Assembly: GCA_015229045.1 (NCBI GenBank)
Contig: JADGCJ010000086.1
Coordinates: 1-13,544, forward strand
DNA from: Magnetococcales bacterium
GTDB taxonomy: Bacteria; Pseudomonadota; Magnetococcia; Magnetococcales; DC0425bin3
Direction of reading: 5' to 3'
DNA length: 13,544 bases
This document shows, piece by piece, positions 1,320-13,518 of the stretch; the first letter of the stretch is position 1, and the number at the start of each line of letters is the position of its first letter. A program made the translations under genes and the position numbers. Under the pieces are notes generated by a model. That model was not told the DNA's origin, made no database searches, and saw only the letters and a list, made by a program, of their open reading frames with translations.

Positions 1320-1371
1320 TTATATGGTGGGCGGTAGAAGAGTTGAACTTCTGACCCCTACCGTGTCAAGG
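1320..1371. repeat. Left attachment site, 52-bp copy of tRNA-Val 3' end
   Basis: This segment is identical over 52 bases to 13467-13518; the next base on each side differs. It contains the 3' half of tRNA-Val (anticodon-stem end, T-arm, acceptor strand and CCA) plus five bases beyond the CCA. It lacks the 5' half of a tRNA, so it is a fragment, not a gene. A direct repeat of a tRNA 3' end flanking an integrase-carrying segment is the classic result of tyrosine integrase insertion into a tRNA gene. Confidence 0.93.
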
Positions 1372-1453
1372 GGCAACCCACCACATAACACACGCAAAAT
1401 CAACAGGTTAATCCAATTTCGACACGGAAATATATCCAACGAGCCCAACCATT

Positions 1454-1472
1454 GCCGCCAAAAGGCGGCTTT
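1454..1472 (+). repeat. Short GC hairpin inside the left end
   Basis: GCCGCC (1454-1459), AAAA loop, GGCGGC (1464-1469), then TTT. It is terminator-like only on the plus strand, where no gene ends just upstream; the recombinase gene ending at 1571 is on the other strand. It may be a weak terminator against read-through from the chromosome or part of the attachment-site region. Confidence 0.3.
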
Positions 1473-1570
1473 GTCATGGATCACTTGTGGAACACCCCCC
1501 CCCCTCGACGTAGGATTGAGCCCATGGCCATTGGTTGGCATGTTGCCCGAAAGCAAATCTGGGAACGAAA

Positions 1571-2545
1571 TCAAGACCGTCCCTGAATCGCCGCCAGCTT
1601 GGCCGCCGCCCCCCTGCGGGCCATGAGTTTTTCCGTGTACCGGGCTACCATCACCGGGCTTTTCCACCCACCGGCCTGCATCACCCCGCCGATTTCCAGC
1701 CCGGCGGCCACCATGTCCTGAGCGGCCCCGACCCGGCAAGAGTGGCCAGAAACTTTTGCGGCATCCTCTCCTGCTAAATCCGCCATCCTCTTGAAGGCCC
1801 GGGCCACCCCCTTGTCGCTCAAACGCCCTGTCGTTGCATCGGCATTGTCGATGCCCTGGAACATGGCTCCCTGCTTGATCCTCGAAATGGCCATCCACTT
1901 CCTGACTCGGGCCACTGTGTCTGAAGCGATGAAACGCACCGACCCGGCTCCCTCCTGATCGGTTTTGCTCTTCCGAATCAATACCGTTCCCGATCCATCC
2001 TCAGCAAAGGAGAAATCCGACACGTCAAGCGCCGCCAACTCCGACCGACGGCACAGAGTGTCGTAGCCCACGGACACCAAAGCCAAGTCCCGCAAATCCC
2101 GCAACGTCCCACGGTCAGCCTCCAGCATCTCTTCCACCAGGCGGTGGTTGATCGGGGCGGCTTGCTGTTGCCGGGTTCCCTTCTCCTTGGCCACCATCCT
2201 CAGGGCATACTTGACAGCCTGGGAGCGGGAGGGGCTTTCGAGCTTGGCAATCTGGTGCTGGGTGGAGATGCTGGAGACGTACCGGCGAATGGTGGCCACC
2301 GCGCAACGGCTCGCCATTGCCTCCACGAACGCGGCCACTGTTTCTGGCTTGGCAGGCAGGCTGTCCATTCCGCGTTCGGCGCAGAACGCCGCGAAAATCT
2401 TGGTATCCGACCGAAACGACCGCAACGTGTTTCTGGCAAAAAGCCTGTGAGCGTACCGGTCGAACTCTGCCAGACATTCACTGATGGCGTCCTGGTTGGC
2501 GATGGCAGTGGTGGATGTGGCGACGGGCAACGTGGTTTCGCTCAT
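1571..2545 (-). CDS. Tyrosine recombinase (left-end, second recombinase)
   Basis: The 324-residue protein is a site-specific tyrosine recombinase: cutting and rejoining DNA through a 3'-phosphotyrosine. The N-terminal SAM-like DNA-binding half spans about residues 22-120. The catalytic half shows Arg166/167 (YDTLCRRSEL), Lys194 (KSKTD), HSCR at 268-271, Trp294 in place of the second His, and Tyr303 (ARYTEK), so the active site is complete. The ATG at 2545 is preferred over upstream in-frame codons because AAGGAA lies 8 bases before it on the minus strand. The gene points to the left attachment site. It differs from the integrase at the other end and may serve dimer resolution, inversion or an alternative integration step; the exact role is not shown by sequence. 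Confidence 0.9.
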   Translation of the reverse strand: MSETTLPVATSTTAIANQDAISECLAEFDRYAHRLFARNTLRSFRSDTKIFAAFCAERGMDSLPAKPETVAAFVEAMASRCAVATIRRYVSSISTQHQIAKLESPSRSQAVKYALRMVAKEKGTRQQQAAPINHRLVEEMLEADRGTLRDLRDLALVSVGYDTLCRRSELAALDVSDFSFAEDGSGTVLIRKSKTDQEGAGSVRFIASDTVARVRKWMAISRIKQGAMFQGIDNADATTGRLSDKGVARAFKRMADLAGEDAAKVSGHSCRVGAAQDMVAAGLEIGGVMQAGGWKSPVMVARYTEKLMARRGAAAKLAAIQGRS

Positions 2546-2576
2546 GGTCTTTTCCTTCGGAAGTGCCCTTATATGT

Positions 2577-11919: not shown

Positions 11920-12034
11920 AAGAACAGCCACTGAAACTGATCATCGAGCGGAGTGACGGGAAACAACGGAGAGATAGGCCTTAATCGAGTCGACAGCGGT
12001 AATCGTGAAAATAAATGATCCTGGAGAACTGACG

Positions 12035-12466
12035 ATGGATGATCTAGCGCTACTGACATTGGATGATGTGGCGAGGTGGTTTCGAATATCCAAGCAAGGG
12101 GTTCTGGATTTAATTTCTACGAGAGGCCTGCCTGCCGTGCGCTTTGGTGCGCCCGGGTCAAAAAGGAAAACCACCCGTTTTGAACGAGAAAAAGTGGCCT
12201 CCTGGTTGCGGCACAATACCGTAAATCAATCAGTTCTTGACGAACCACAGCCTTCCGTCCAAGAGAAAATACCATGCCAGTCTACAAGCGCACCAATTCC
12301 CCATTCTGGTACGTGGCGTTCACCGACGCGAGCGGCCTGCGAATTAAGCGCTCTTCTGGAACAAAAGACAGGCGGGAGGCGGAAGCCCTGGAAGGAAAAT
12401 GGAAACACGAAGCCCACCAGCAACGACTGTGGGGCACTCAACCCCGAAGGTCTTTCGAGGAACTAA
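12035..12466 (+). CDS. AlpA/excisionase-like helix-turn-helix protein
   Basis: The ATG at 12035 has GGAG 8 bases upstream (12023-12026); an in-frame GTG at 12005 lacks a site. The first 60 residues are an AlpA/MerR-type winged helix-turn-helix (LLTLDDVARWFRISKQGVLD, then LPAVRFG and FEREKVASWLRHN), the class that includes excisionases and AlpA, which direct the integrase towards excision. The tail from about residue 80 is translated from DNA that is also the start of the integrase gene; it is polar and low in complexity and may have no function. The 193-base overlap is unusually long. It lies directly before the integrase, as expected for a xis gene. Confidence 0.75.
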   Translation: MDDLALLTLDDVARWFRISKQGVLDLISTRGLPAVRFGAPGSKRKTTRFEREKVASWLRHNTVNQSVLDEPQPSVQEKIPCQSTSAPIPHSGTWRSPTRAACELSALLEQKTGGRRKPWKENGNTKPTSNDCGALNPEGLSRN

Positions 12467-13326
12467 TGCTTGAGTTTCTCAAGGCCAGGCCCGCTGAAAA
12501 ATCGGTTGGCCTGGAAAAGATCCACACCCGCCATTTCCTGCGCCATTTTGCCGGAAAATACCTGGACGAAATCAAGGGAACTGACGTAAGGGGTTACGTG
12601 GCAGCCAGGCAAGCCGATGGAATCAAACCGGCCACCGTCAACCGGGAACTCAACACCCTCTCGACAGCCATCAACTGGGCGCGGCGGCAACTGGGGTGGG
12701 AGGTACAGAACCCGGTGGAGGGGAACAAACTGCCTGAACCAGAGGGGCGACTGCGGTGGTTGACCCAACCGGAACAAGAGGCCCTGATCCGGGCCGCTCG
12801 CCAACACCAAAGCGCCCCCCACCCGGCCGACTTCATCATCCTGGCACTCAACACCGGCTGCCGATCCGGGGAACTTCTGAAACTGGAATGGGCACGAGTG
12901 GATTTCGTGACCAACCTGATTCACCTGGAACCGCAACACACCAAAACCAGGAAACGTCGGGCCGTTCCACTCAACAGCAGCGCCGTGGAAGCAATCGCCA
13001 GCCGAGCCAGCTTTCGGTCCAGAACCTGTCCCTCATCACCGTGGGTCTTCTCGCACCCGACGGGAGAGCGGATTCAGTCGGTCAAGCGCTCCTTCGCCTT
13101 CGCCTGCAAGCAGGCAGGAATTCAGGATTTCCACATCCACGACCTGCGCCACACTGTTGGATCACGGCTGGCACAATCCGGCGTCTCCCTGCATGTCGTG
13201 CGAGACACCCTAGGACACCGCTCCATCCGTTCGACCGAACGCTACGCCCACCTGGCCCCGGAGCAGGTACGGGAAGCGCTGGCGACACTCGATAAGGCAG
13301 AAAAGCCAAACCAGAAGAGGCAATGA
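12274..13326 (+). CDS. int: Tyrosine integrase of the element
   Basis: The 350-residue protein is a phage-type tyrosine integrase: N-terminal arm-binding domain (about 1-55, opening MPVYKRTNSPFWYVAF), SAM-like core-binding domain (59-145), catalytic domain (160-330) with Arg197 (NTGCRSGE), Lys224 (QHTKTRKRR), HDLR at 289-292, His315 (LGHRS) and Tyr324 (TERYAHL). All active-site residues are present. Its 3' end lies 140 bp from the attachment repeat in the tRNA-Val gene, the usual place for the enzyme that inserts at that site. Its ribosome binding site is weak (AAGAGA), and its start lies inside the upstream xis-like gene, so translation may depend on coupling. Confidence 0.93.
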   Translation: MPVYKRTNSPFWYVAFTDASGLRIKRSSGTKDRREAEALEGKWKHEAHQQRLWGTQPRRSFEELMLEFLKARPAEKSVGLEKIHTRHFLRHFAGKYLDEIKGTDVRGYVAARQADGIKPATVNRELNTLSTAINWARRQLGWEVQNPVEGNKLPEPEGRLRWLTQPEQEALIRAARQHQSAPHPADFIILALNTGCRSGELLKLEWARVDFVTNLIHLEPQHTKTRKRRAVPLNSSAVEAIASRASFRSRTCPSSPWVFSHPTGERIQSVKRSFAFACKQAGIQDFHIHDLRHTVGSRLAQSGVSLHVVRDTLGHRSIRSTERYAHLAPEQVREALATLDKAEKPNQKRQ

Positions 13327-13466
13327 CCCGGGAGGGTGGGGTGAAGACGAAACCCACAGCCCTATTTTATGCCAAGGAATTTGCGGCGTTGCACCAGGGG
13401 GGGGTGTGGATCAAAAATGGATCACTACGCTTCTTGCTGACCGGGAAATTCTCGTAACTGCTTGAT

Positions 13467-13518
13467 TTATATGGTGGGCGGTAGAAGAGTTGAACTTCTG
13501 ACCCCTACCGTGTCAAGG
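13467..13518. repeat. Right attachment site inside tRNA-Val
   Basis: Exact 52-bp match to 1320-1371. Here the repeat continues into the 5' half of the tRNA, so this side keeps the intact gene. The integrase gene ends 140 bp to its left. The crossover point lies somewhere in the 52 bp and cannot be placed more exactly from sequence alone. Confidence 0.93.

Follow-up and report, generated by a model that had tools for sequence, protein, structure and literature searches.

Phage-inducible chromosomal islands (PICIs) and Staphylococcus aureus pathogenicity islands (SaPIs) rely on the large terminase of their helper phage. The satellite P4 carries a primase-helicase, an integrase acting at a tRNA gene, and regulators that act on its helper, and P4-like satellites have an immunity based on a C4-type antisense RNA. 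P4 DNA is packaged by the terminase of P2, according to the accessible part of one account (PMC10690885). We analyzed a stretch of 13,544 nt, contig JADGCJ010000086.1 of assembly GCA_015229045.1 from a Magnetococcales bacterium; this whole stretch is called the window. It holds an element of 12,199 bp (positions 1320-13518) between two perfect 52-nt direct repeats. On balance, this element is likely to be a phage satellite belonging to a type equipped with a complete packaging motor of its own.

Results

As far as can be read from its sequence, the packaging motor of the element is complete, with a gene resembling those of small terminase subunits (TerS) and both halves of the large terminase subunit (TerL) as adjacent genes:

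10019-10498, plus strand, TerS-like gene, 159 aa, inside a 265-aa open reading frame (ORF) starting at 9701
10485-11231, plus strand, ATPase half of TerL (phrog_7579, 4e-59)
11239-11919, plus strand, nuclease half of TerL, a gene of its own (phrog_27743, 5e-42; Pfam Terminase_6C, 5e-5)

The profile of the ATPase family matched two solved TerL ATPases, T4 gp17 (2o0h, 6e-16) and 4zni, and that of the nuclease family matched solved TerL nucleases (5m1q, 6e-13; 5tge) and, weakly, UL15 (4iox, 0.006). The ATPase residues G48-K49-S50-T51 and E136-D137-E138 were invariant across 21 aligned homologues. The nuclease was compared in rows from phages and from loci in which no head gene was found (termed headless), duplicates included. 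Its first aspartate was present in all 30 phage rows and missing from only two of the 70 headless rows; of seven acidic positions, six were present in 67-69 of the 70 headless rows and in all 30 phage rows, and the remaining one in 64 and 22 rows, respectively. The structure model of the nuclease was confident (predicted local distance difference test (pLDDT) 87, predicted template modeling score (pTM) 0.80).

Small terminases begin with a region resembling a helix-turn-helix (HTH) and have a long helical hairpin. The structure model of the TerS-like protein showed both features (pLDDT 82, pTM 0.42). The gene gave no Pfam or PHROG match, and almost all matches of its protein in a search of PDB sequences were designed proteins. 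With a profile of its family, the gene was found next to TerL in headless elements and also in 14 of 30 split-TerL phage rows. In the window (9701-10498) the TerS-like gene is in frame with the stretch upstream of it, which is a separate small ORF in L003, a related Magnetococcales locus; a second one, L198, likewise has a separate small ORF upstream of its TerS-like gene.

The ratio of nonsynonymous to synonymous substitution rates (dN/dS) was 0.07-0.17, about 0.1, over 11 gene comparisons, from which the nuclease row of L060/L063 was left out because it was in the wrong frame. Between the window and L003 the ratio was 0.09-0.17 for the ATPase, nuclease, TerS, primase, and both recombinases, with dS at 1.1-2.5 and thus near saturation; the less diverged pair L017 and L009 gave 0.081 for the ATPase at a dS of 0.45. 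These low ratios indicated that the genes are kept under purifying selection and are not decaying. Families of portal, capsid, protease, tail, and lysis proteins were all absent from the Pfam and PHROG matches listed for the window ORFs, including a scan of 33 further ORFs of at least 60 aa that excluded those nested in core genes.

Relatives were collected by a protein search with the ATPase half, in which 8000 candidates were scored and 7647 were homologues. The search admitted proteins of 0.55-1.75 times the query length, so that long single-chain TerL proteins could not appear, and the 120 homologues listed were 246-284 aa long, which is the split form. We sampled 72 loci from a scan of genome contigs (genome_contigs) and, from two scans of viral contigs (viral_contigs), 2 loci and the best 80 of 188. 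The closest relatives of the window were Magnetococcales; L003, at 75% in TerL, has the same gene order, occupies the same tRNA-Val, and has a repeat of 51 nt. A full-length ATPase match was found in 7 of 48 Magnetococcales genomes, one further genome having a distant phage TerL, and the window's primase was found at E<1e-80 in 7 of the 48, six of them among the seven TerL carriers.

Attachment (att) repeats were accepted when they were perfect, at least 45 nt long, overlapping a tRNA gene, and flanking TerL. Four bounded elements came from 75 sequences searched (L003, L017, L028, and L038) and one from a further 15 (L198); a 17-bp repeat in L007 was not accepted. With that of the window, the bounded elements are the following:

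Window element, 12.2 kb, tRNA-Val
L003 (Magnetococcales), 10.5 kb, tRNA-Val
L017 (Thermovorax subterraneus DSM 21563), 10.1 kb, tRNA-Lys
L028 (Thermoleophilia), 12.0 kb, tRNA-Thr
L038 (Chloroflexota), 13.2 kb, tRNA-Met
L198 (Magnetococcales), 12.2 kb, tRNA-Phe

No portal or capsid family was among the matches listed for these six elements of 10.1-13.2 kb. The scan was made on non-core ORFs of at least 60 aa, other than those nested in core genes, and covered 116 of 116 in the window, L003, L017, and L198 (best 25 of 66 families) and, at 1e-5, 105 of the 115 ORFs kept for L028 and L038 (all 17 families inspected). The families listed were regulators, antirepressors, excisionases, toxin-antitoxin systems, a methyltransferase, primase, and a few without a named function, together with one ORF with a tape-measure and one minor-tail family match in L038. 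The unexplained ORFs of at least 250 aa in the window, L003, and L017 were inspected singly and gave no structural match. An all-against-all comparison of ORFs of at least 60 aa, in which ORFs antisense to or overlapping the four shared genes were disregarded, revealed that only TerS, the ATPase, the nuclease, and the integrase are common to all six elements.

To this set we added the wider family. Once loci sharing identical TerL DNA had been removed, the classed set comprised 55 genome loci (50 split and 3 single-chain headless loci and 2 with head genes), several of them from one genome; L013 was classed despite its short flank, its portal being visible, and 39 rows were too short to class. 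The headless test used local profiles built from confirmed phage proteins plus a PHROG scan (best 25 of 90 families) of 77 of 85 downstream ORFs from 75 loci, each of 190-700 aa, on the same strand, and within 6 kb, the other 8 being nuclease or integrase. No head gene was found in the stretch examined in 53 of the 55 distinct loci, bacterial and archaeal, and the exceptions were L013 (portal) and L025 (protease). The same terminase, with no capsid gene found nearby, also occurred in methanogenic archaea and several little-cultured phyla.

The gene content of the headless loci differed from that of the phages. The 50 headless split-TerL genome loci had the nuclease in 50, TerS in 41, a primase in 35, and an integrase in 32 cases, whereas the corresponding counts for 27 split-TerL phages from IMG/VR were 27, 13, 3, and 6 (Fisher p = 7e-7 for primase, 7e-4 for integrase, and 4e-3 for TerS, with flank lengths that differ between the two sets). 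Sharing the terminase while differing in the rest argues against recent deletion of prophages. On a quick TerL tree of 107 of 164 rows (near-duplicates and short rows dropped; support by the Shimodaira-Hasegawa-like approximate likelihood ratio test (SH-aLRT) only), the window, L003, and L004 grouped with a support of 99. The headless label changed 17 times on this tree versus 30.8 times when shuffled, and 0 of 500 shuffles were as low, which shows that headless rows cluster; the 17 changes suggest that headless and phage terminases were exchanged or converted several times.

Single structural genes in some relatives ruled out the idea that particle genes are lacking in the whole family. The headless label is also less sure for IMG/VR rows: head-morphogenesis genes occur in L105, L108, and L121 and, weakly matched, in L098, and four more rows (L085, L094, L117, and L153) may belong to phages whose heads have diverged. 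In the circular contigs L075 (15.2 kb) and L106 (17.7 kb), no head gene was found, and four of their ORFs scanned by PHROGs gave no match. By eye, ParA-like genes were seen at 11312-12100 of L075 and 12835-13590 of L106, and these may point to plasmid-like forms or maintenance. A further circular contig, L100, is headless by label and had no intact nuclease ORF that we could see; it was not used.

The remaining features of the window are as follows:

1320-1371, left copy of the att repeat, 52 nt, perfect (repeat search)
1571-2851, minus strand, second tyrosine recombinase, left end, 426-aa ORF
3331-3867, plus strand, Mor-family late transcriptional activator (phrog_836, 2.6e-29; PF08765)
4141-4458, minus strand, HTH antitoxin-like gene (family match)
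4448-4777, minus strand, Gp49/DUF891 toxin-like gene (family match)
5058-5990, plus strand, Bro-N antirepressor (phrog_130, 1e-43)
6264-7040, plus strand, protein of 258 aa without a known family, confined to a few close relatives
7059-9704, plus strand, primase-helicase (Toprim; phrog_5629, 2e-77)
12005-12466, plus strand, xis-like ORF (phrog_2907, 2e-9; HTH_17), overlapping the start of the integrase ORF
12274-13326, plus strand, integrase (tyrosine recombinase), adjoining the tRNA gene (phrog_1, 1e-75)
13467-13518, right copy of the att repeat, overlapping the 3' part of the tRNA-Val(GAC) gene
13472-13544, minus strand, tRNA-Val(GAC) gene, reaching the window end

The left-end recombinase has homologues of 343 aa in L003, 327 aa in L196, and 335 aa in L198; since these are shorter, the first part of the 426-aa ORF is probably non-coding. 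The HTH and Gp49 genes (4141-4777, minus strand) form a toxin-antitoxin-like pair. The C-terminal domains of the Bro-N antirepressor and the primase are alike (36% over 97 aa, 3e-15), and through this common domain both proteins may read one DNA site. Outside the element, the left flank has an Rfam match to sRNA-Xcc1 at 273-354 (59.9 bits).

A preliminary description of this DNA had named most of these features. The perfect att repeats it proposed are the two 52-nt copies, the right one overlapping the tRNA-Val gene, and the PHROG matches bear out its integrase, xis-like gene, primase-helicase, and Bro-N protein, as the PHROG and Terminase_6C matches do its terminase ATPase and nuclease. Its small terminase-like gene is supported by the family profile that finds it beside TerL, without a Pfam or PHROG match, and its statement that portal, capsid, protease, tail, and lysis genes are lacking agrees with the matches listed for the window ORFs. 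A C4-type RNA, which it had also proposed, received no support from Rfam, with no match at the gathering threshold in the window and none at E<=1 over 2850-7060. The second tyrosine recombinase, the Mor-family activator, and the toxin-antitoxin-like pair had been overlooked.

Phages with a related terminase indicated what portal genes this motor family lies close to. The phage row nearest to the window TerL is L076 (61% to the window, 72% to L017, and 69.5% to L011), in which the ATPase and nuclease genes are followed by a Mu-type portal (PF06074 Portal_Mu, 6e-86) and a Mu F protein. The nearest named phages by TerL are Thermus phage Riverbug (53%) and Meiothermus phage MMP17 (48%); in both, TerL is a single chain, and genes for portal, head, and tail sheath come after it. 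The annotation of MMP17 names Mu-like head proteins, and that of Riverbug has no Mu-like names. SPP1-type portals were found in the split-TerL loci L139, L146, and L013, and the TerL family is therefore not tied to one portal type. Two Mor-family ORFs, a distant TerL, and a Mu-type portal gene follow one another on one contig of the Magnetococcales genome G060, and Mor-family matches are frequent in the order (40 of 48 genomes). The Mu-type portal of L076, together with the element's Mor-family gene, makes Mu-like helpers a reasonable guess for the window's lineage.

A solitary Mu-type portal gene of about 400 codons lies on Magnetococcales chromosomes, with no other phage gene recognized nearby. 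It was read at eight loci:

L242, 13900-15108
L243, 10291-11463
L244, 9847-11034
L248-L252

Six of the eight loci share a host neighborhood (not L243, and L250 only partly), consisting of a 157-aa protein and genes that resemble, by eye, those of ferrochelatase, cobyrinate diamide synthase, and DsrE-type proteins. The gene was present, with an identity of at least 63%, in 23 of 48 Magnetococcales genomes (3 of 7 TerL carriers and 20 of 41 others), and among the sampled genomes of the phylum outside the 48 the best matches were at most 51%. The gene looks domesticated. We had taken 33 of 48 genomes with Portal_Mu matches as carrying Mu-like prophages, and this was rejected when the neighborhoods showed many matches to be the solitary host-type gene; the count is therefore not evidence for helpers.

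Discussion

These results support, at the level of sequence, that satellite-like elements with a full terminase but without particle genes are a recurrent type and that this one is not a lone remnant. It probably packs its DNA into particles made by another virus. That its terminase is kept under selection is the observation, and each step beyond it we infer. As the helper phage grows, the element would excise and replicate with its own primase, while its Bro-N protein and Mor-like activator would tune genes of the helper or of the element itself, a regulatory role similar to the one that epsilon and delta have in P4. Its TerS would select element DNA, and the two-piece TerL would dock on the helper's portal and fill the helper's procapsid. 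Phages with Mu-type portals would be the likely partners for the window's lineage.

Several observations weigh against this account. Clear tape-measure genes lie in L007, L030, L038, and L069, all without a recognized portal or capsid (the match is weak in L010, and none was found by profile in L012 and L064), and fiber genes lie in L020 and L136. The circular 8.8-kb L086 combines a primase, TerS, and split TerL with a major head protein, no portal being recognized. Headless and phage rows are interspersed on the TerL tree, so that the headless ones do not form a single clean clade. In most of 30 carrier genomes from all groups, no resident helper prophage was found: 24 had no match to PF04860, PF06074, or PF05133, and the six with a match had PF04860 (2, one below the cut-off), PF06074 (2, both solitary host-type genes), or PF05133 (2). 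Nor was there a positive association within Magnetococcales, with Portal_Mu in 4 of 7 full-length TerL carriers versus 29 of 41 other genomes and PF04860 in 0 of 7 versus 5 of 41; three of the four Portal_Mu-positive carriers (G001, G002, and G065) had a single match each, the solitary gene. If packaging occurs, the helpers are thus probably often incoming rather than resident.

The scarcity of helpers, with 24 of the 30 carriers lacking a match to the three portal families, is also what one would expect if the terminase served another role, for example if it processed replication concatemers, took part in plasmid-like maintenance, or interfered with the packaging of phages, and the ParA-like genes of the circular L075 and L106 fit such a role as well. 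We nevertheless consider it rather unlikely, since every one of the six bounded elements has kept TerS, ATPase, and nuclease as a set, catalytic residues are conserved at a dN/dS of about 0.1, and the split TerL lies close to portal genes in phages. The reading that the element is what is left of a complete prophage after loss of the genes for head, tail, and lysis draws on the existence of phages with a related split terminase and on a headless state that seems to have changed several times on the TerL tree. It is hard to reconcile with att repeats intact at both ends, open genes under purifying selection, the same terminase-integrase set in several phyla, and a primase (E<1e-80) kept in six of the seven Magnetococcales TerL carriers, one non-carrier having it too, and we judge it very improbable indeed.

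It is very unlikely, too, that the element builds its own particle from proteins diverged beyond recognition, for example the 258-aa protein at 6264-7040. Several ORFs do lack a family match, but the 258-aa family has one match beyond itself in the protein search and its cluster consists of three loci, and among ORFs of at least 60 aa, those antisense to or overlapping the shared genes set aside, the six elements have nothing in common beyond TerS, TerL, nuclease, and integrase. A motor working with the host-chromosomal portal rather than with that of a phage would fit the presence of this orphan gene in 23 of 48 genomes (identity at least 63%) and its shared neighborhood in most of the eight loci. 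The gene is, however, present in only 3 of 7 carriers compared with 20 of 41 others, no capsid gene was seen beside it, and its matches in the sampled phylum outside the 48 genomes stay at or below 51% while the elements extend far beyond the order; this explanation is extremely improbable.

The motor-bearing satellite thus remains our preferred reading, and it can be set against the expectations of the preliminary description. That homologues might always lie inside full prophages is contradicted by the classed genome loci, since in 53 of the 55 distinct ones no head gene was found in the stretch examined, and L003 and L198, likewise bounded and headless, speak against a deletion remnant as judged from close relatives. 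As to the gene order it suggested seeking elsewhere, L003 has that of the window at the same tRNA-Val. As to the helper prophages it suggested seeking, portal matches occurred in 6 of 30 genomes carrying relatives, two of them solitary host-type genes, and in 24 of 30 there was none. The proposal of a new satellite type holds insofar as anatomy and relatives support a motor-bearing satellite-like type, and has to be qualified in that some relatives have single structural genes. As for "undescribed," the open-access literature searched yielded no account of a satellite that has a complete terminase and neither portal nor capsid, and the novelty is provisional.

A broader reading is possible, though we would not call its four parts likely when taken together. 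There would be a satellite class spread over bacteria and archaea, with a two-gene TerL and TerS in the absence of portal and capsid as its hallmark; its motor would dock on foreign portals, the terminase being matched to the portal type of the helper; the window's lineage would be a satellite of Mu-type phages, with late genes switched on by its own Mor-family activator; and other lineages would add single structural genes (tape measure, fiber, or head protein) that retune the borrowed particle. A motor-only satellite by itself would show that packaging specificity can move as a self-contained unit between unrelated heads, would make the matching of terminase to portal testable in nature, and would extend satellites of this kind to methanogenic archaea and several little-cultured phyla.

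Comparison with Known Systems

The published accounts are compared here in those parts that were accessible. The element shares att sites, an integrase, an excision function, and a primase with PICIs and SaPIs, of which PICIs sometimes have terS; like them it has no structural or lytic genes among the matches listed, and PICIs are about 15 kb in size (PMC6092414). It departs from PICIs, which have at most TerS, in having both TerL halves. Capsid-forming PICIs (cf-PICIs) are integrated satellites with their own TerS and TerL (PMC10690885), but they also encode capsid, protease, portal, and connectors, none of which was found in the element. The Streptomyces satellites Mulch and Flayer also have their own small and large terminase; they encode a portal and major capsid and are without key replication genes in the part of the account at hand, which is roughly the reverse of the element (PMC10690885).

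Like P4, the element has a primase-helicase, an integrase at a tRNA gene, and putative regulators that may act on a helper; unlike P4-like satellites it carries its own terminase, and it has no Rfam match to a C4-type RNA. AH14b of Pseudomonas sp. ANT_H14 is a small prophage with a primase that apparently travels in the capsids of another phage, and in the accessible part of its description no terminase gene was found (PMC4936722). Phage-inducible chromosomal minimalist islands (PICMIs) are likewise small integrated satellites, but homologues of terS, sid, and ppi were not identified in them, as far as the accessible part of the report goes (PMC10803314), whereas the element has TerS and TerL.

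The split-TerL phages L076 (Mu-type portal) and L139 (SPP1-type portal) have the same adjacent TerL-ATPase and nuclease genes as the element; they differ in having portal and head genes, and primase and integrase are rarer in the stretches examined. Nor does the element look like a defective prophage, in that its genes are open, its dN/dS is low, and no head gene was found in its close relatives L003, L198, and L004. It has the general anatomy of a satellite, namely a bounded integrated element with an integrase and with no virion structural or lysis genes among the matches listed. According to the accessible part of a review (PMC11389934), terminase genes in an element would point to its mobilization by phages.

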